Part shown: piece by piece, positions 17,272-25,432 of the stretch | Numbering within the stretch: the first letter of the stretch is position 1 | Layout: each line of letters begins with the position of its first letter | Origin: Phaeobacter piscinae | GTDB lineage: Bacteria; Pseudomonadota; Alphaproteobacteria; Rhodobacterales; Rhodobacteraceae | Assembly (NCBI RefSeq): GCF_002407245.1 | Contig: NZ_CP010681.1 | Span: 1,984,001-2,048,000, forward strand | DNA length: 64,000 bases | Direction of reading: 5' to 3' | Position numbers and translations under genes: made by a program | Notes under the pieces: generated by a model | Databases searched by the model: none | What the model was told of the DNA's origin: nothing | The model's input: the letters and a program-made list of their open reading frames with translations, nothing else

Positions 17272-18675
17272 CTATTTGGTTATGATCTCCGGCCCCATCA
17301 CCGCATTCGGCAGCACGGTTGAGATCCACGGGATATAGGTGATCATGATCAGGAACACGAAGAGCACCGCGAGGAACGGCAACGCAGCCCGCACCACCGC
17401 CATCATCGGCATTCCCGCAACCCCGGAGGTCACAAAGAGGTTCAGACCAACCGGCGGGGTGATCATGCCGATTTCCATGTTCACCACCATGATGATGCCC
17501 AGGTGGATCGGGTCGATGCCCAGTTCGATGGCAATCGGGAACACCAGCGGCGCCACGATCACCAACAACCCCGACGGCTCCATAAACTGTCCCCCGATCA
17601 GCAGGATCACATTGACCACGATCAGGAACATCACGGGGCCAAAGCCCGCCGACAGCATCGCCGTGGCGATCTGCTGTGGCACCTGCTCATCGGTCAGCAC
17701 ATGTTTCAGGATCAGCGCATTGGCGATCACGAACAAGAGCGTCACGGTCAGCTTGCCCGCTTCAAACAGCGCATGGCGCGTATCGGCGTGAAAGAAGGAT
17801 GGGATGAAATAAACCACCGTCTGTCCCAGCATCTTGGGCAGCATGGACAGGAATTGCCCCATATCCTTGGGTTTGGGCGCAGATTTCAACGGCCCCATAT
17901 CACGGTAGACAAAGGTCGCCACAAAGAAGGCATAGACCGACGCCACCGCCGCCGCCTCTGTCGGGGTGAAAATCCCGCCATAGATGCCCCCCAGAATGAT
18001 GCCGATCAGCAGCAGACCAACCGAGGCATTGCCAGCCGAGGCGGCAACCTCACCCCAGCCCAGCCATTCGCCCTTGGGCAGGTTCTTGACCTTGGCCATC
18101 ACATAAATGGTGACCATCAGCATCAGACCCGCCATCAGCCCCGGAATAACGCCTGCAAGGAACATCCGCCCGACGGAAACCTCAACCGCCGCGGCATAGA
18201 CCACCATCACGATGGACGGCGGGATCAGGATGCCCAGCGTGCCTGCGTTACAGATCACACCAGCGGCAAACTCCTTGGAGTAGCCCACCTGCCGCATCCC
18301 CGCGATCACGATGGAGCCAATGGCAACCACGGTGGCCGGGGAAGACCCGGACAGGGCCGCAAACAACATACAGGCAAAAACGCCGGCAATCGCCAGACCA
18401 CCCGGCAGATGACCGACACAAGCGATGGAAAAGCGGATGATCCGCCGTGCCACACCGCCCGTCGTCATGAAGCTGGAGGCCAGAATGAAGAAGGGGATCG
18501 CCAGCAGGGTGAAATGCCCCTCGAAGGCTTCAAACAGCGTGCCCGCAACCGAGGCCAGCGAGCTGTCGGAATAGATCAGCAGGAACAATGTCGAGCTGAG
18601 GCCAAGTGCCACCGCAATCGGAACCCCGATCAGCAACAGCCCAATGACCATGGAAAACAATAGGACGACATCCAT
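17272..18675 (-). CDS. dctM: TRAP transporter large permease DctM
   Basis: 467 residues, almost entirely membrane helices (about 12), the sodium-driven membrane domain of a tripartite C4-dicarboxylate-type transporter. Family signatures visible are GLSSTLFLLI at the start, ALSGSSPATVVAIGSI, NAGTLGILIPPSI and, near the end, EIGMITPPVGLNLFV. A central segment (about residues 240-290) is polar and longer than in minimal DctM proteins, as in the C4-dicarboxylate subgroup. The start ATG overlaps the TGA of dctQ by one base. Last gene of dctPQM. Confidence 0.95.
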   Translation of the reverse strand: MDVVLLFSMVIGLLLIGVPIAVALGLSSTLFLLIYSDSSLASVAGTLFEAFEGHFTLLAIPFFILASSFMTTGGVARRIIRFSIACVGHLPGGLAIAGVFACMLFAALSGSSPATVVAIGSIVIAGMRQVGYSKEFAAGVICNAGTLGILIPPSIVMVVYAAAVEVSVGRMFLAGVIPGLMAGLMLMVTIYVMAKVKNLPKGEWLGWGEVAASAGNASVGLLLIGIILGGIYGGIFTPTEAAAVASVYAFFVATFVYRDMGPLKSAPKPKDMGQFLSMLPKMLGQTVVYFIPSFFHADTRHALFEAGKLTVTLLFVIANALILKHVLTDEQVPQQIATAMLSAGFGPVMFLIVVNVILLIGGQFMEPSGLLVIVAPLVFPIAIELGIDPIHLGIIMVVNMEIGMITPPVGLNLFVTSGVAGMPMMAVVRAALPFLAVLFVFLIMITYIPWISTVLPNAVMGPEIITK

Positions 18676-19352
18676 CAGTCGTGCTCCCCGCGCTGCGCCT
18701 GCACTTCGGCGATTTCGTCTTCGACCTCGTGGCTGGCCACCAGCCGGTCCACATCACCGCGCAGAATTTGCAGACCCGCCTGCACAAACCGCAGCACCAT
18801 CAGCAGCATCGACAGCGGCAGCACCACATAGGGCACCACCTTGGGCAGTTTCTCATAGGAATCGCCGTAGTTGATCAAATCTTCCAAGAACCCAAAGAGC
18901 GCCACCATCGGCACATCCTGCACCTCGTAGAAACTCTGGCTCCGCGCCTTCATGTCGAAACCGGTGGGAAACCAGCGCCCGGAGGTCGGCGGCAGATCGG
19001 CAAAGACCGCCCAATAGTCATAGGCGCCCTTCAGCAGCAGCAGCGAGAACACCAGACAGCAGCCGACCGAGATCAGCCCGATCACCCGGCGCGCGCCCGG
19101 CGACACCATATTGAGGATCGCATCCACCCCCAGATGGGCGTGGACCTTCACCGCATAAGATGCGCCCAGCAGCACCAGCCAGGCAAACAGGGACACCGTC
19201 AGCTCCAGCGCCCATAGAATGTTGGAATTAAACACAAATCGCGCCACCACATTGGCAAATGTGATCAGGGTCATCAGCCCCAGCAGCAGCGCAATCAGCG
19301 TCTCTTCGAGTGTATTGATAAGCCCGGTCGGGCCAGGTTTTGCCCCCGCCAT
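18675..19352 (-). CDS. dctQ: TRAP transporter small permease DctQ
   Basis: 225 residues with four membrane helices, including ALELTVSLFAWLVLLGASYA, characteristic of DctQ. The loop between helices 3 and 4 is long and polar (about residues 120-165), as in dicarboxylate systems. It bridges the binding protein and DctM. The start at 19352 follows GGGAGAG and gives MAGAKPGPTG; an earlier ATG lies in poor sequence. A hairpin separates it from dctP. Confidence 0.93.
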   Translation of the reverse strand: MAGAKPGPTGLINTLEETLIALLLGLMTLITFANVVARFVFNSNILWALELTVSLFAWLVLLGASYAVKVHAHLGVDAILNMVSPGARRVIGLISVGCCLVFSLLLLKGAYDYWAVFADLPPTSGRWFPTGFDMKARSQSFYEVQDVPMVALFGFLEDLINYGDSYEKLPKVVPYVVLPLSMLLMVLRFVQAGLQILRGDVDRLVASHEVEDEIAEVQAQRGEHD

Positions 19353-19413
19353 ATCGCTCTCCCTCGATGTTTGGATAATGGGATACCGGCGCGGATGGCG
19401 CACCGTACAAATT

Positions 19414-19460: not shown

Positions 19461-20462
19461 TTACATGCCCGCGTTGATCGCCTGGGCTGCGTCGATCATG
19501 TCCTGACCCACGTCGCCTGCGAACTGCTCCCAGACCGGCTTCATCGCCTCAACCCAGGCCGCACGCTGCTCAGGTGACAGTTCACGCACCACGCCACCGG
19601 CATCGATGATCGCCTGACGGGCTTCGCCATTCACCTTGGTGGATTCCGAGTTCCGCGTCGCAGTGACCTCACCCAGGATGGTCAGGAACTGTTCACGCAC
19701 CGCCGGATCAAGGCTGTCGAGCCAATCCACCGAGGTCACCACCAGATAGTCCAGCGCGCCGTGGTTGGTCTCAGTGACACCGTCCTGCACTTCAAAGAAC
19801 TTCTTGCCGTAGATGTTGGACCAGGTGTTTTCCTGCCCGTCCACAACGCCCTGCTGCAGCGCGCCGTAAACTTCGGAGAAGGCCATTTTCTGCGGGCTGC
19901 CGCCGATCGCTTCCATCTGCGCCACCAGCACGTCCGAGGACTGCACACGGAATTTCAGACCATTGGCATCGGACGGGTTGATCAGCGGCTTGTTGGCTGA
20001 CATCTGCTTCATGCCATTGTGCCAGTAGGCCAGCCCCTGCAGACCACGGCGCTGCATGGAATCCAGCATCGCCTGACCGTTCTCGGACCCTTGGAAGGCA
20101 TCGACCGCATCAATGTTCTTGAACATGAACGGCAGATCGAACAGGCGGAATTGCTTGGTGAACTTCTCAAATTTCGACAGAGAAGGCGCAGCCAGCTGCA
20201 CGTCACCCTGCAGCATCGCTTCCAGCACCTTGTTGTCATTATACAGCGTGGAGTTCGGATAGACCTCCAGACACATGGTGCCGTTCATCTCTTCATTGAT
20301 GCGCTTTTCCAGCAACGAGGCCGCAATCCCCTTGGGATGCTTGTCGGTGTTGGTCACATGGCTGAACTTGACGACAATCTCACCGTCATCGCAGGCCGCC
20401 ATTGCGGTCCCTGCACTCATGGTCAGCGCCACAGCGGTGGCAGCAGCAGTTACAAATTTCAT
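19461..20462 (-). CDS. dctP: TRAP transporter substrate-binding protein DctP
   Basis: 333 residues with a Sec signal peptide (VTAAATAVALTMSAGTAMAA) and a mature periplasmic binding domain starting CDDGEIVVKFSHVTNTDKHP. The conserved arginine region GLKFRVQSSDVLVAQMEAIG and the QGVVDGQENTWSN motif mark the DctP family; the carboxylate of the ligand binds the Arg. Together with DctQM and the adjacent DctBD, succinate, fumarate or malate are likely substrates. The start at 20462 follows GGGAGGAAAG. Tandem DctD-type sites lie about 180-230 bases upstream. Confidence 0.93.
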   Translation of the reverse strand: MKFVTAAATAVALTMSAGTAMAACDDGEIVVKFSHVTNTDKHPKGIAASLLEKRINEEMNGTMCLEVYPNSTLYNDNKVLEAMLQGDVQLAAPSLSKFEKFTKQFRLFDLPFMFKNIDAVDAFQGSENGQAMLDSMQRRGLQGLAYWHNGMKQMSANKPLINPSDANGLKFRVQSSDVLVAQMEAIGGSPQKMAFSEVYGALQQGVVDGQENTWSNIYGKKFFEVQDGVTETNHGALDYLVVTSVDWLDSLDPAVREQFLTILGEVTATRNSESTKVNGEARQAIIDAGGVVRELSPEQRAAWVEAMKPVWEQFAGDVGQDMIDAAQAINAGM

Positions 20463-20583
20463 GTCTTTCCTCCCGGAATTTCTCCATAGCCTCCGCCCAG
20501 GCGAAGGCCCCAGACGCAGCATCACGGGCAAAGTGGCCCCGCTCAAGTCTTTGTTACCCACCAAAAATATATGTAATTTATCA

Positions 20584-20589
20584 ATTATA
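20584..20589 (-). promoter_or_regulatory. Candidate sigma-70 -10 box of dctPQM
   Basis: On the minus strand this reads TATAAT, with a poor -35 (TTTACC, 15-base spacing) upstream. A -24/-12 sigma-54 promoter was sought: TGGCAC at 20630-20635 has GC at the wrong distance (11 instead of 10 bases), so a sigma-70 promoter activated from the upstream sites is preferred. Confidence 0.4.
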
Positions 20590-20642
20590 AACAAATGTTT
20601 ACGCGGTAAAGTTCACCTTGCATGCTGGTGTGCCAGATTTTA

Positions 20643-20693
20643 TGTGCGATTTTCCGCACAGGGTGATCGTTGGCCTGTGCGGAAATCCGCACA
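20643..20693. promoter_or_regulatory. Tandem DctD-type activator sites
   Basis: Two 18-base palindromes, TGTGCGATTTTCCGCACA at 20643-20660 and TGTGCGGAAATCCGCACA at 20676-20693, with centres 33 bases apart (about three helix turns). They resemble the upstream activating sites of rhizobial dctA. They are about 55-110 bases upstream of the candidate -10 box of dctPQM. Confidence 0.75.
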
Positions 20694-21151: not shown

Positions 21152-22387
21152 TCAGCGGCGATAATCTTCGGGCCGGATGCCATAACGCGCCAGCTTGTCA
21201 TAAAACGTCTTACGCGGCAGCTTCAGGGCTTTGGCCGCGGCAGAGGCATTGCCGTTCTGCCGCCCCAGTGCTGCAATAAGCAGGGACCGCTCCACCTGCG
21301 CCAACTGCTCCGCCAGCCCCAGCTCCGCGGATTGCGCGGCCTCCTCCGGCATCCCCAGCACAAACCGCATCGCCGCAGACATCAGCGAGCGCGCATTGCC
21401 GGGCCAATCCTGCGCCATCAGCGCCGCAAGATGGTCCTGCGGAATGTCCGGCGCAGCAATGCCCGCCTGCTCTGCGGCCTGGGCGACATAGTGGCTGAAC
21501 AGCACGGGAATATCCTCGGGCCGTTCGGACAGCGCCGGAATGCGCACCCGCATCACGTCAAGCCGGTAGAAAAGATCGGCCAGGAATCGCCCCTCTGCCG
21601 CCGCCTCTGCCAGATCCGCGACTGAGCCGACCAGAACCCGCGCCTCCAGCGCCTGCTCCTGTTCCAGCGCTTCCAACATGGCATATTGCGTCTCGCTTGG
21701 CAGGGCGGCGATTTCATCCAGGTACAGCGATCCGCCCGCCGCCGCGCGGCACAGATCCGCAAACCCATCCGGGCTGAGCCCTGCCGCCGGGCGTTTCACA
21801 AACGGGCCTTGCCCGCGCGGTGACATCAGGTGAATGACCTCCGCCACCTTGGAAATCCCGCCCCCCGGCGCGCCGGTCACCAGCACCTCGGCCCCCGTGG
21901 CCGCCACCGCACGCGCCCGCGCACGCAGCTCCTCCATCTGCGGTGAGGTGCCAAATATCATCCGCGCCGCCGGATCACCGCTTTCCAGGCGAGACTTCAG
22001 CGCCCGGTTTTCCCGCACCAGCGCCCGCGTCTTCAGCGCCCGGCGCACCACCGCCATCAGATCCACGCTGGCGCAGGGTTTCTCAAGGAAATCAAACGCC
22101 CCTTCGGCCATTGCCTGCACCGCCATCGGGATGTCCCCCTCGCCGGTCAGCAGGATCACCGGCAGATCAGCGTCCACCTCGCGCACATAGCGCAGCAGAT
22201 GAAACCCGTCGCGTCCCGGCATCCGCATGTCCGACAGGATCACCCCGTCAAAATCAGGCGTGATCAAATCCTTGGCTGCCACAAAGGACCCCACAGTAAT
22301 AGCATCACACTCCGCCAGCTCCAGCGTCTGGCCCAATGCGGCCCGAACGGCCGCATCATCATCCACCACCAAAACCCGATTGGTCAT
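21152..22387 (-). CDS. dctD: DctD-like response regulator with degenerate AAA+ domain
   Basis: 411 residues. Receiver domain (residues 1-120) with acidic pocket VVDDD, phosphoacceptor in LSDMRMPG and Lys in FLEKPC. The central domain should be a sigma-54-activating AAA+ module but is shortened: the Walker A is GAPGGGIS with no lysine, and the segment from it to Walker B (GGSLYLDEI) lacks the GAFTGA loop. Arginine-finger regions (FYRLDVMRVRIPALSERPEDI) and the Fis-type HTH (NASAAAKALKLPRKTFYDKL) remain. The gene overlaps dctB by ATGA. It should bind DNA and respond to DctB but not drive sigma-54 by ATP hydrolysis. Confidence 0.88.
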   Translation of the reverse strand: MTNRVLVVDDDAAVRAALGQTLELAECDAITVGSFVAAKDLITPDFDGVILSDMRMPGRDGFHLLRYVREVDADLPVILLTGEGDIPMAVQAMAEGAFDFLEKPCASVDLMAVVRRALKTRALVRENRALKSRLESGDPAARMIFGTSPQMEELRARARAVAATGAEVLVTGAPGGGISKVAEVIHLMSPRGQGPFVKRPAAGLSPDGFADLCRAAAGGSLYLDEIAALPSETQYAMLEALEQEQALEARVLVGSVADLAEAAAEGRFLADLFYRLDVMRVRIPALSERPEDIPVLFSHYVAQAAEQAGIAAPDIPQDHLAALMAQDWPGNARSLMSAAMRFVLGMPEEAAQSAELGLAEQLAQVERSLLIAALGRQNGNASAAAKALKLPRKTFYDKLARYGIRPEDYRR

Positions 22388-24186
22388 GCCACCTCATCCT
22401 GTTGCTGCGTGTCAGTGCCGGCCTGCGCCCGCCAGCGGTCCAGTTCCACCGTGAACTCTGCGCCATCACCGGTGTTGACCCCGCGGATATGGCCACCAAA
22501 GCTCTGCACCAACCCGTAGGAGATCGACAGCCCCAGCCCCATACCCTCGGAACTGCCCACCGCCTTGGTCGAATAGAAAGGGTCAAAGATCTTTTCCGGC
22601 TCCTTCAGGCCGGGGCCGATGTCGCGCACACTCACCGCAAGCCGCGCGCCCGCATCCGTGTCGCCCTCATCCTGGCGTGTCTCAATCGCAATGTGGATCT
22701 CGCGCTGCTCCTGCTCCAGCATTGCATCTGCGGCATTGTTGATCAGGTTCACAAACACCTGCGACAGGCGCACCTCGCCGCCCCAAGCAAAGACCGGCTC
22801 TGCTGGCGGCTGCCAGATTAGATCGACCCGATCCTGCCGCAGGCGGGGCTCTGTCAGCTCAATCGCGGAGGCAATCACCTGCCCCAGATCCACCCGCCCC
22901 ATCGGCTCGCTCTCGTTGCGGGCAAAGGCGCGCAGGTTCTTGATAATCCGCGCCATCCGCCCCGCCATCTGCGAAATCCGGCCAAGGTTCTCCCCCGCCC
23001 GCTCCGGCTTGCCCCGCGCCACAAAGGCCTCGCCGTTTTCGGCATATTGCTGGATCGCCATCAAGGGCTGGTTCAGCTCATGACTGATCCCCGCCGACAT
23101 CTGCCCCAGCGCCGACAATTTGCCCGCCTGCACCAGATCCTGCTGTGCGCGCTTCAGCGCCGCCTCGGCCTCTTGGCGTTCCTGCACCTCGCGGGTGAGC
23201 CGCATATTAGTGGCCGACAAGGCCCGCGTGCGTGCCGCAACCCGGCTTTCCAGCACCGTATTCGCCTCCGCCAGCGTGCGCCGACGTTCAAGCGCCAAGG
23301 CCAGCATCGCCCCAAGCGCCAGCACAATCGCCGCCATCGCCGCCGCCTGCAGCCCCGCCAGCCGCTGGGCCGGGGCCACATCGACCAGAATTTCGCCCAC
23401 CATGCCGATCTGCGGCAGGTTTACCGCCTGATGCAGCGCCCGCTCCGGCAGATAGGGCGACCAGCGCAGATCCCAGATCTCATGTGGACCCTCCATCCAG
23501 GCCCGAAGCGCCACCTGCCGCCCATCCGGCGGCGACAGCCCCGGTCCTTCGGCGCTGCGCTGCCAGAACAACAACTCCCGCCGGTTGGCAATGAACACCT
23601 CACCGCCGCGATTGGTGAAAAACACCGCAGGCAGCGACCCGCGCCAGGTCTGCTCCACATCCTCGACATCGGCGACCACCACCAAGGCACCGCGCACCCG
23701 ACCATCCACATCGAAGTCCGGTGCCGCATAAATATAGGCGCGCCGCCCATCCGGTTGCAGCACCCCGTAGCCAGTGCCCAGCGCCCCCTGCATCGCCCGG
23801 TGGAAATAGCTGCTCTGGGTCACATCGCGCCCCATCACCCCCTCAGCAGCGACCACCACCCGGCCCGCCCGGTCGACAAAGAACACATCCAGCGCCGCTG
23901 TCTTGTCGGCCACCTCGCGCAACAGCCCCTGCGCCGCCACCCGCGCCTCTGCCCGGTCCAAACGCTTCAGCGTCGGGTGATCGGCCATCAAAACCGCCAG
24001 CTCCTGATAGACCTGCAACTGCGTTGTCACCCGGTCCGAGGCCAGCGCAAGATCCGCCGCGCTGCGTTCGGCAAGCGAATCAAGTGCTTGGCGGTAGCCC
24101 AACCGATACACACCGCCCGCAACAGCGGCCACCGCCCCCAGAAGAAGCGCCAGAATGATCCACCGATGTGCGTGAAATTGCGTCAT
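22384..24186 (-). CDS. dctB: C4-dicarboxylate sensor kinase DctB
   Basis: 600 residues: N-terminal helix (WIILALLLGAVAAVAGGVY), a periplasmic double-PAS/Cache sensor (about 30-280), a second helix, a coiled coil (about 320-375), then DHp with the phosphorylated His in GISHELNQPLMAIQQYAEN and HATPase with FVNLINNAADAML, DIGPGL and GMGLGLSISYGLV. It senses external C4-dicarboxylates and phosphorylates DctD. Start taken at 24186 (MTQFHAHRW), which places the helix correctly; the ribosome site is weak. Divergent from the P450 gene with a gap of 61 bases. Confidence 0.92.
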   Translation of the reverse strand: MTQFHAHRWIILALLLGAVAAVAGGVYRLGYRQALDSLAERSAADLALASDRVTTQLQVYQELAVLMADHPTLKRLDRAEARVAAQGLLREVADKTAALDVFFVDRAGRVVVAAEGVMGRDVTQSSYFHRAMQGALGTGYGVLQPDGRRAYIYAAPDFDVDGRVRGALVVVADVEDVEQTWRGSLPAVFFTNRGGEVFIANRRELLFWQRSAEGPGLSPPDGRQVALRAWMEGPHEIWDLRWSPYLPERALHQAVNLPQIGMVGEILVDVAPAQRLAGLQAAAMAAIVLALGAMLALALERRRTLAEANTVLESRVAARTRALSATNMRLTREVQERQEAEAALKRAQQDLVQAGKLSALGQMSAGISHELNQPLMAIQQYAENGEAFVARGKPERAGENLGRISQMAGRMARIIKNLRAFARNESEPMGRVDLGQVIASAIELTEPRLRQDRVDLIWQPPAEPVFAWGGEVRLSQVFVNLINNAADAMLEQEQREIHIAIETRQDEGDTDAGARLAVSVRDIGPGLKEPEKIFDPFYSTKAVGSSEGMGLGLSISYGLVQSFGGHIRGVNTGDGAEFTVELDRWRAQAGTDTQQQDEVA

Positions 24187-24247
24187 TGGCCGCACAGTAG
24201 CAAAGCCCCCCTTGCATTGACCAGCCGCCTTGGCAAAAGCTGCGCGG

Positions 24248-25432
24248 ATGAAGACATTGACCCAATCCCCCACCGATCCCGATTTTGTCCAATCGCCCTA
24301 CGGATTTTATGCCGAGGCCCGCGCGATGGGACATCTGCATCATTGGCAGGACTACAATATGGTTGCGGCCTTTTCGCACCCCGCTGTGCATACCCTGCTG
24401 CGCGACCGCCGTTTTGGCCGCGAAATCCCGCCGGAGATGGCGCGAGAAAGCCCGGCCCATCTGGCCCCTTTCCTGCAGGTTGAGGCGCATTCGCTACTGG
24501 ACGCCGAACCGCCCCGCCACACCCGCCTGCGCCGGCTTGTGTTGCGCGCCTTCACCAGCCGCGAGATCAAGGCGCTGGCGCCGGGGCTGGAAACGCTCTG
24601 CCATGAGCTGATCGACGCCTTCCCCGCGGATGCGCCCTTTGATCTCCTAACCACCTATTGCACGCAGGTCCCGGTGATCGCGATTTGTCGCCTCTTGGGC
24701 GTGCCCACGGCGATGGCGCCGCAGCTCTTGGACTGGTCGCACAAAATGGTGGCGATGTATCAGGCCTCCAAAACGGTTGAGACAGAACATGCCGCCGCCC
24801 GCGCCAGCCAGGACTTCATCGACTTCCTCACAACCTATGTGGACGAGCGCCGCAAGACCCCGGGTGAGGATCTGATCACCCGCCTCATTCAAGCCGAGGA
24901 AGACGGCGAGAGCCTCTCCACGGATGAGCTGATCGGCACCTGTATCCTGTTGCTCAATGCCGGCCATGAGGCCACGGTGCATTCGCTGGGCAATGGCGTG
25001 AAAACCATGCTGCAACAGGGCTGGGACCAAAGCTGGCTTGCCCCTGACGGCATCGACGGTCTGGTGGAGGAAATCCTGCGCTATGACCCGCCGCTGCATA
25101 TGTTCACCCGCTACGCCTACGAGGAGATTGAGATGTTCGGTCATACCTTCCAGCGCGGCGATGAGGTGGCACTGCTGCTGGCCGCTGCCAACCGCGACCC
25201 AGAAATGCTGGAGGATCCCGAACGCTTCGATCCCACGCGCCCAGCCAAAGTGAACACCTCCTTTGGGGCGGGCCTGCACTTCTGCGTCGGCGCGCCGCTG
25301 GCGCGGATGGAAATGCAGATCGCGCTGCCGATCCTGTTTGAACGCTGCCCGGACCTGAAACTGGCCGCCGCGCCCGAATACAACAACACCTACCATTTCC
25401 ACGGGCTGACCCGTCTCATGGTCACGGTCTAA
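24248..25432 (+). CDS. Cytochrome P450
   Basis: 394-residue soluble bacterial P450. I-helix oxygen-activation motif AGHEAT, K-helix ExxR in EEILRYDPP and heme-binding loop FGAGLHFCVGAPLARME with the cysteine ligand are all intact. Class and length fit CYP families that use ferredoxin and ferredoxin reductase; no partner gene is adjacent, so electrons must come from elsewhere. The substrate cannot be told. ATG 24248 is preferred over a TTG six codons earlier; neither has a strong ribosome site. Confidence 0.93.
   Translation: MKTLTQSPTDPDFVQSPYGFYAEARAMGHLHHWQDYNMVAAFSHPAVHTLLRDRRFGREIPPEMARESPAHLAPFLQVEAHSLLDAEPPRHTRLRRLVLRAFTSREIKALAPGLETLCHELIDAFPADAPFDLLTTYCTQVPVIAICRLLGVPTAMAPQLLDWSHKMVAMYQASKTVETEHAAARASQDFIDFLTTYVDERRKTPGEDLITRLIQAEEDGESLSTDELIGTCILLLNAGHEATVHSLGNGVKTMLQQGWDQSWLAPDGIDGLVEEILRYDPPLHMFTRYAYEEIEMFGHTFQRGDEVALLLAAANRDPEMLEDPERFDPTRPAKVNTSFGAGLHFCVGAPLARMEMQIALPILFERCPDLKLAAAPEYNNTYHFHGLTRLMVTV

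Follow-up and report, generated by a model that had tools for sequence, protein, structure and literature searches.

The window analysed here is a stretch of 64,000 nucleotides from the genome of Phaeobacter piscinae. Its minus strand carries the genes dctB, dctD, dctP, dctQ and dctM, in that order. The dctB gene (22384..24273, with a putative GTG start) encodes a sensor histidine kinase with HisKA and HATPase_c domains, plus a Cache match that stays under the cut-off. Its 3' end overlaps the start of dctD (21152..22387), an intact open reading frame with an ATG start. This gene encodes a response regulator of 411 amino acids, made up of a receiver, a degenerate AAA+ domain and a Fis-type helix-turn-helix (HTH).

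Next on the same strand is dctP (19461..20462), for a TRAP solute-binding protein. Its likely ATG is at 20462 (MKFVTAAATA), behind GGGAGGA, and is preferred over the start of a longer open reading frame. The small and the large TRAP membrane subunit are assigned to dctQ (18675..19403, putative start) and dctM (17272..18675), both by position and by a tblastn match to the gene order of L246, a Ruegeria pomeroyi locus. DctD orthologues are recognised here by the gene order dctB-dctD-dctPQM and by a receiver-AAA-Fis layout, and both are present in the window. At the far end of the cluster, a cytochrome P450-like gene (24230-25432) is divergent from dctB and overlaps its annotated 5' end. This assignment comes from several P450 models, none of which reaches its cut-off.

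The interval from dctD to dctP contains two 18-bp palindromes of the type TGTGCGG-N4-CCGCACA, presumably the DctD operators. On the minus strand, the distal one (TGTGCGGATTTCCGCACA) lies at 20676..20693 and the proximal one (TGTGCGGAAAATCGCACA) at 20643..20660, 33 bp away. Further along the same strand follow an IHF-like element with A/T tracts (20575..20601; by eye one mismatch to the core YAA-N4-YTGAWW), a -35-like hexamer TTGAGC (20541..20546) 114 bp away from where the proximal palindrome starts, and a weak -10-like hexamer GATGCT (20518..20523), 17 bp from the -35.

Loss of GAFTGA and of the Walker A lysine

The original prediction, made from the letters of this locus, saw a DctD with an intact receiver and an intact Fis-HTH. 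Both are indeed over their Pfam cut-offs (Response_reg at residues 5-114, HTH_8 at 362-402), as are Sigma54_activat, Sigma54_activ_2 and AAA_lid_14 (288-356). It also saw a Walker A motif without its lysine, and this is borne out. The motif reads GAPGGGIS (residues 172-179), with isoleucine at position 178, where an alignment has lysine in 14 of 14 relatives of the GAFTGA and GAFxGA types.

LYLDEI, in which the Walker B Asp-Glu is present, starts at residue 221. The stretch before it was said to be too short for GAFTGA, and the comparison agrees: 38 residues separate Walker A from Walker B in the window, versus 57 in the GAFTGA-bearing orthologue L125. GAFTGA was sought in the window protein and is absent. 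Across alignment positions 182-218, 106 of 107 degenerate proteins have 37 residues where L125 has 56; with 19 residues fewer, the GAFTGA loop is therefore among what is missing. A further loss was not part of the prediction. Arg269, which we take to be an arginine-finger position, is an arginine in 14/14 relatives and in 0/107 degenerate orthologues. A claim that sensor I is lost too was dropped; the comparison rows vary at those positions as well.

To collect the degenerate orthologues, 295 genomes of the family were searched; 244 have a match at E <= 1e-60, a count that includes other NtrC-type regulators. Among the matches listed, 126 were full-length with 50% identity or more, of which 110 were fetched; the other 16 and two partial ones (G220, G079) were left out. 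Together with 20 matches of lower identity this makes 130 loci. The 110 rows comprise 107 intact degenerate proteins, one with an internal stop (L042), and two with the Walker A lysine and without GAFTGA (L120, L121). L042, from genome G009, has an internal TAA in dctD and still has the palindrome pair and a downstream dctP. It is excluded from the protein counts, and its upstream region is included in the counts over 95 and 98 loci.

Position 178 is never lysine in the 107 intact orthologues: it is Ile in 59, Thr in 29, Val in 11, Asn in 4, Leu in 2, and Met and Ser in one each. The pattern GAF.GA is found in 0/107. The named genomes agree, with a Walker A lysine in the DctD of 0/80 loci (two of these rows judged by eye). 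Given that both features are gone from all 107, neither chance nor a sequencing fault accounts for the loss. An alignment with other DctDs, which had been suggested as a check, thus finds the losses in every intact orthologue. The prediction was about a switch in this one DctD: the change stands, its peculiarity to this protein does not, since a whole clade of the family shares the change.

Other residues are new to these proteins. Two positions beyond the missing Lys178, at 180, 105 of the 107 proteins have Lys and the other two Arg. At position 183, 106 have Glu and one has Asp, versus Arg in 14/14 rows of the GAFTGA and GAFxGA types. Met336 (103/107) and Met340 (105/107) stand where relatives have Arg/Lys and Asp/Glu. 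These four are new, near-invariant residues of the degenerate DctD. The phospho-acceptor Asp53 and Lys103 are invariant (107/107), and Arg333 is kept in 105/107. Walker B is in between: D224 is present in 102, E225 in 92 and both in 88, which leaves it incomplete in 19/107. Because Walker B is mostly kept, a nucleotide may still have some role.

Pooled dN/dS over eight pairs of more than 80% identity is 0.094 for the receiver, 0.173 for the AAA core, 0.107 for the lid and 0.109 for the HTH, with synonymous changes near saturation. Judged by these sequences, the degenerate DctD is under purifying selection, with newly fixed residues.

In trees that took in 40 of the 107 degenerate rows, these rows sit on one branch with an SH-aLRT of 99, and of 99.1 if the Walker A to Walker B columns are removed. 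L120-L122, which have the Walker A lysine and no GAFTGA, branch outside this clade. The branch that joins them and a divergent group of five rows to the degenerate rows has 97, or 92 (not starred) without those columns. As L120-L122 lie outside and still have the lysine, this order of branching suggests that GAFTGA was lost first, and the ATP site later.

The five divergent rows (L123, L124, L126, L128 and L139, from genomes G105, G156, G171, G123 and G160) form a second DctD group, in which Walker B is lost too. Their dctP matches precede the dctB-like gene and are encoded on the other strand. In yet other rows (L127, L130-L137, L140, L141, L164, L165, L173 and L174), GAFPGA, GAFAGA or similar replaces GAFTGA, in genomes with and without RpoN.

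Sigma-54 and the dctP promoter

The window's genome is 4.13 Mb in 8 contigs and is listed as 100% complete. For RpoN (sigma-54), Pfam model PF04963 gave no match there and PF04552 a single one under threshold, at C1:3336808. This candidate was rejected, and is read as the HTH of a LacI-type protein. A PF00158 search of the same genome found five NtrC-type regulators, with the remaining matches read as other ATPases. None of the five has GAFTGA, and the Walker A lysine is missing solely from DctD. L001, L002 and L004 are regulators of this kind with the lysine, and so is the DctD-like half of L003 (G000:C1:1342108-1345566), a second DctB/DctD-like pair.

Within the family, RpoN was found in 89 of the 295 genomes and was not found in 206. 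Two of the eight named genomes that carry the degenerate DctD have it, Ruegeria pomeroyi among them, and 26 of the 107 degenerate proteins come from genomes with RpoN. The degenerate state is therefore stable with or without RpoN.

Canonical DctDs offer a comparison. The L125 protein was searched against 289 genomes of the class, which gave 29 loci in 21 genomes; 7 of the 29 have a downstream dctP, scored by tblastn at E <= 1e-4. L125, L150, L151, L154, L155 and L166, which we take to be of the Rhizobium type, have the same receiver-AAA-Fis layout as the window, with a dctB-like kinase before and dctP after. Unlike the window DctD, they keep both GAFTGA and a -24/-12 element before dctP.

A matrix for sigma-54 sites was made with our own weighting of what we take to be the consensus, and applied to the region between 400 bp before and 90 bp after the called dctP start. 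An element of at least 22.5 out of 25.5 precedes dctP in 6/6 loci with GAFTGA versus 0/107 without. The latter are 98 degenerate loci (L042 included), three intermediates and six GAFPGA-like loci. As the threshold was set post hoc after L125, which scores 22.5, and the 113 loci are related to one another, the Fisher value of 4e-10 should be taken as no more than an indication. Loci that lack GAFTGA score at most 22.0, some 350-390 bp upstream of the called start, which by position is the 3' part of dctD. The six GAFPGA- or GAFAGA-like loci with a downstream dctP have no strong -24/-12 element.

A real -24/-12 element at dctP would speak against the original prediction. It was looked for and not found: upstream of dctP in the window the best score is 18.0 of 25.5, which 67% of shuffles reach, and a wider search stayed under 22.5. 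Between this result, the RpoN search and the five regulators without GAFTGA, the idea that DctD has left sigma-54 is strongly supported by the sequences.

The palindromes are a constant of the clade. A pair at 32-34 bp, matching 17 or more of the 24 scored letters, is found in 95 of 98 loci with dctP (L042 counted): the spacing is 33 in 62, 32 in 32 and 34 in one. L088, L111 and L114 fall short of this. In the named genomes, with 80 loci, the pair is present at all 78 that have the dct gene order. The pair at dctP is the sole tandem pair of perfect palindromes in the window's genome. With up to one mismatch there are 12 sites in that genome versus 7 for the reversed pattern, which puts the number of single sites close to what chance would give. 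Another perfect palindrome is at G000:C1:2869284.

A pair 32 bp apart also occurs in the GAFTGA loci L125 and L151, and one clear palindrome in L154; the TGTGCG palindrome was sought in L150, L155 and L166 and none was seen. Judging by this distribution, the palindromes seem to be an ancestral trait of some canonical DctDs, and what changed would be the type of promoter.

The IHF-like element and the promoter emerged when upstream regions were aligned on the proximal palindrome. At about +60 to +84 from it there is a motif YAA-N4-YTGAWW with A/T tracts, which resembles the IHF consensus read on the other strand. It has a likelihood of 598 versus 68-100 in 10 shuffled sets, and a position of 56-59 in 85/95 loci. 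A relaxed IHF core is exact in 31/95 loci (mean of 0.8 in 500 shuffles), and the complete textbook consensus in 5/95.

The promoter motif consists of TTGAGC-N17 and then a hexamer resembling TTTACT, in which the final T is strong. Its likelihood is 720 versus 101-139 in 10 shuffled sets, and it starts at 104-110 in 80/95 loci. Independent of this fit, TTGA[GT] is found 114-119 bp from the proximal palindrome in 52/95 loci, where the best 6-bp bin in 500 rotations held at most 13. There are also five occurrences at 104-107 bp and none at 108-113. The gap hints at helical phasing, with the proviso that three or more of the five have the same Walker A letters and could reflect a single event.

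These elements keep their distance relative to the palindromes rather than to the dctP start codon. The -35-like element follows about 115 bp downstream of the palindromes, at a nearly constant distance and with the IHF-like element between. The dctP start codons as first called were wrong in the window and probably at other loci as well; distances to the ATG are therefore not used as evidence. A general sigma-70 scan of unanchored upstream regions did no better than shuffles at most loci. The fit of the promoter is poorer in genomes with RpoN, with standard spacing in 14/22 versus 65/72. The -10 lacks the usual second A, both in the window and in the consensus, which makes it uncertain which sigma factor is used.

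Relation to known activators

Activators without GAFTGA that work with sigma-70 are already known, and the degenerate DctD would be a further variant. What is distinctive here is that the lysine of the ATP site is lost in every member examined, with an enhancer-like geometry retained.

Rhodobacter capsulatus, from the same broad bacterial group, has an NtrC that lacks GAFTGA like the window DctD. According to the available part of PMC10274813, it activates sigma-70 polymerase and requires its receiver aspartate and ATP binding. The NtrC of the window's own genome keeps the Walker A lysine, unlike the window DctD. HupR of R. capsulatus has its binding site a long way upstream of hupSL, with an intervening IHF site; its target differs from that of DctD. 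It is an NtrC-family protein with no working GAFTGA and is sigma-70-dependent, and is grouped as such with TyrR and DhaR (PMC3162934, in part).

VpsR of Vibrio cholerae and Caulobacter NtrC likewise lack GAFTGA and act at sigma-70 promoters. VpsR is reported to be independent of ATP, and in Caulobacter NtrC the Walker A and B residues are needed for growth on ammonium (excerpts of PMC10274813). The accessible portions of their descriptions make no mention of remote sites that come in pairs with an IHF-like element, such as those proposed for DctD.

Judged by sequence alone, the window does show a pair of sites that precede a -35/-10 promoter by a good distance. We take paired remote sites to be a hallmark of activators of the R. 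capsulatus NtrC/HupR type.

The best-scoring NCBIfam model for DctD is the PgtA response regulator (NF047793), which matches end to end over 414 positions. The score of 258 bits is below the cut-off of 650, so DctD is not assigned to that family. PgtA could possibly show a parallel loss. Among the matches listed, judged by title and the start of the abstract, no published work on the degenerate DctD clade was found; most subscription journals were outside this search.

A physiological hint comes from R. pomeroyi, where the fitness of transposon mutants was compared between multibacterial and single-species cultures. In the part of that study available (PMC10041152), Rp+V has values of -0.13 for dctM (SPO2626), -0.17 for dctQ (SPO2627) and -0.25 for the regulatory protein SPO2630. 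Rp+V+M has -0.12 for dctM and -0.65 for dctQ, with nothing significant given for SPO2630, whose effect is significant in just one of three treatments. From the numbering, SPO2630 would be the dctD or dctB of this cluster. The common sign of the regulator, dctQ and dctM effects is a slight hint of an activator. L246, from another R. pomeroyi strain, has a degenerate DctD, the palindromes, the IHF-like site and TTGAGT-N17-TTCACT.

How DctD may act

We consider it rather likely that DctD is an ATPase-dead, sigma-54-independent protein derived from a canonical enhancer-binding protein, and that it activates a sigma-70-type promoter through an IHF-bent loop without ATP hydrolysis. It would probably switch genes on at a distance without ATP. 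In this scheme, DctB would phosphorylate D53, and DctD would occupy the two 18-bp palindromes, which precede the predicted start of the dctP transcript by about 145 and 178 bp. IHF would bend the DNA between palindromes and promoter. DctD would contact a sigma-70-type RNA polymerase at the TTGAGC-N17 promoter with its poor -10, and raise the activity of the polymerase without hydrolysing ATP; we infer that it does not bind ATP either.

The original prediction had offered either sigma-70 activation or a repressor. Activation of the sigma-70 type is favoured, because remote palindromes stand at near-fixed spacing with an IHF-like element between, and because of the sign of the R. pomeroyi mutants. 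The repressor is disfavoured. DctD would then hold down dctP through a repression loop or by wrapping DNA, with phosphorylation either relieving or strengthening this. The parts needed for sigma-54 activation are gone from DctD, as such a role would allow, and Caulobacter NtrC, also without GAFTGA, activates and represses alike (PMC10274813 and PMC12421884, both in part). However, about 115 bp separate the palindromes from the -35-like element downstream, with no overlap, the weak -10 suggests that an activator is needed, and the R. pomeroyi regulator mutant has the sign of the transporter mutants. All this makes a repressor distinctly improbable.

That DctD activates the same kind of promoter but needs to bind a nucleotide seems unlikely. 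Lys180 would replace Lys178, next to a retained Walker B and Arg333; both Walker B acids are there in 88/107, Lys or Arg180 in 107/107 and Arg333 in 105/107. The R. capsulatus NtrC, as far as described in the available part of PMC10274813, needs ATP binding and not hydrolysis. Against this, Lys178 and Arg269 are each lost in 107/107, and Walker B is incomplete in 19/107.

The -10, unlike the housekeeping consensus, could mean that another factor of the sigma-70 family (RpoH or ECF) serves the promoter, or that DctD merely counters a silencer and does not touch the polymerase. This is improbable too: RpoD promoters of Sinorhizobium meliloti have been proposed to be dominated by TTG, with little other consensus (PMC3616915, in part), and the near-fixed spacing between promoter and palindromes suggests contact.

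It is hardly credible that DctD is an ordinary sigma-54-dependent regulator or a decaying pseudogene. Databases do call the degenerate DctD sigma-54-dependent, and one orthologue, L042, has its internal stop. But RpoN was not found and dctP has no -24/-12 element, and purifying selection with newly fixed residues does not fit decay.

Activation through a loop may be one part of a larger picture, to which we would give an even chance. This would be an ATP-free bacterial enhancer, in which an AAA+ pseudo-ATPase uses the old sigma-54 enhancer geometry (paired remote sites, an IHF bend and a near-fixed loop length) on a sigma-70-type promoter. It would go back to one change at the base of a family-wide clade, in which the loss of GAFTGA preceded that of the ATP site, and Lys180, Glu183, Met336 and Met340 would form a new allosteric or polymerase-contact surface.

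For the family, this means that the label "sigma-54-dependent transcriptional regulator" misleads for the degenerate DctD clade, given that RpoN was not found in 206 of 295 genomes. The target of this regulator is dicarboxylate uptake in marine bacteria. The loci also make up a natural series, in which activator and promoter changed together and the palindromes were kept. The uncoupling of an AAA+ activator from sigma-54 and ATP therefore becomes testable, and so does the question of whether action at a distance needs ATP.
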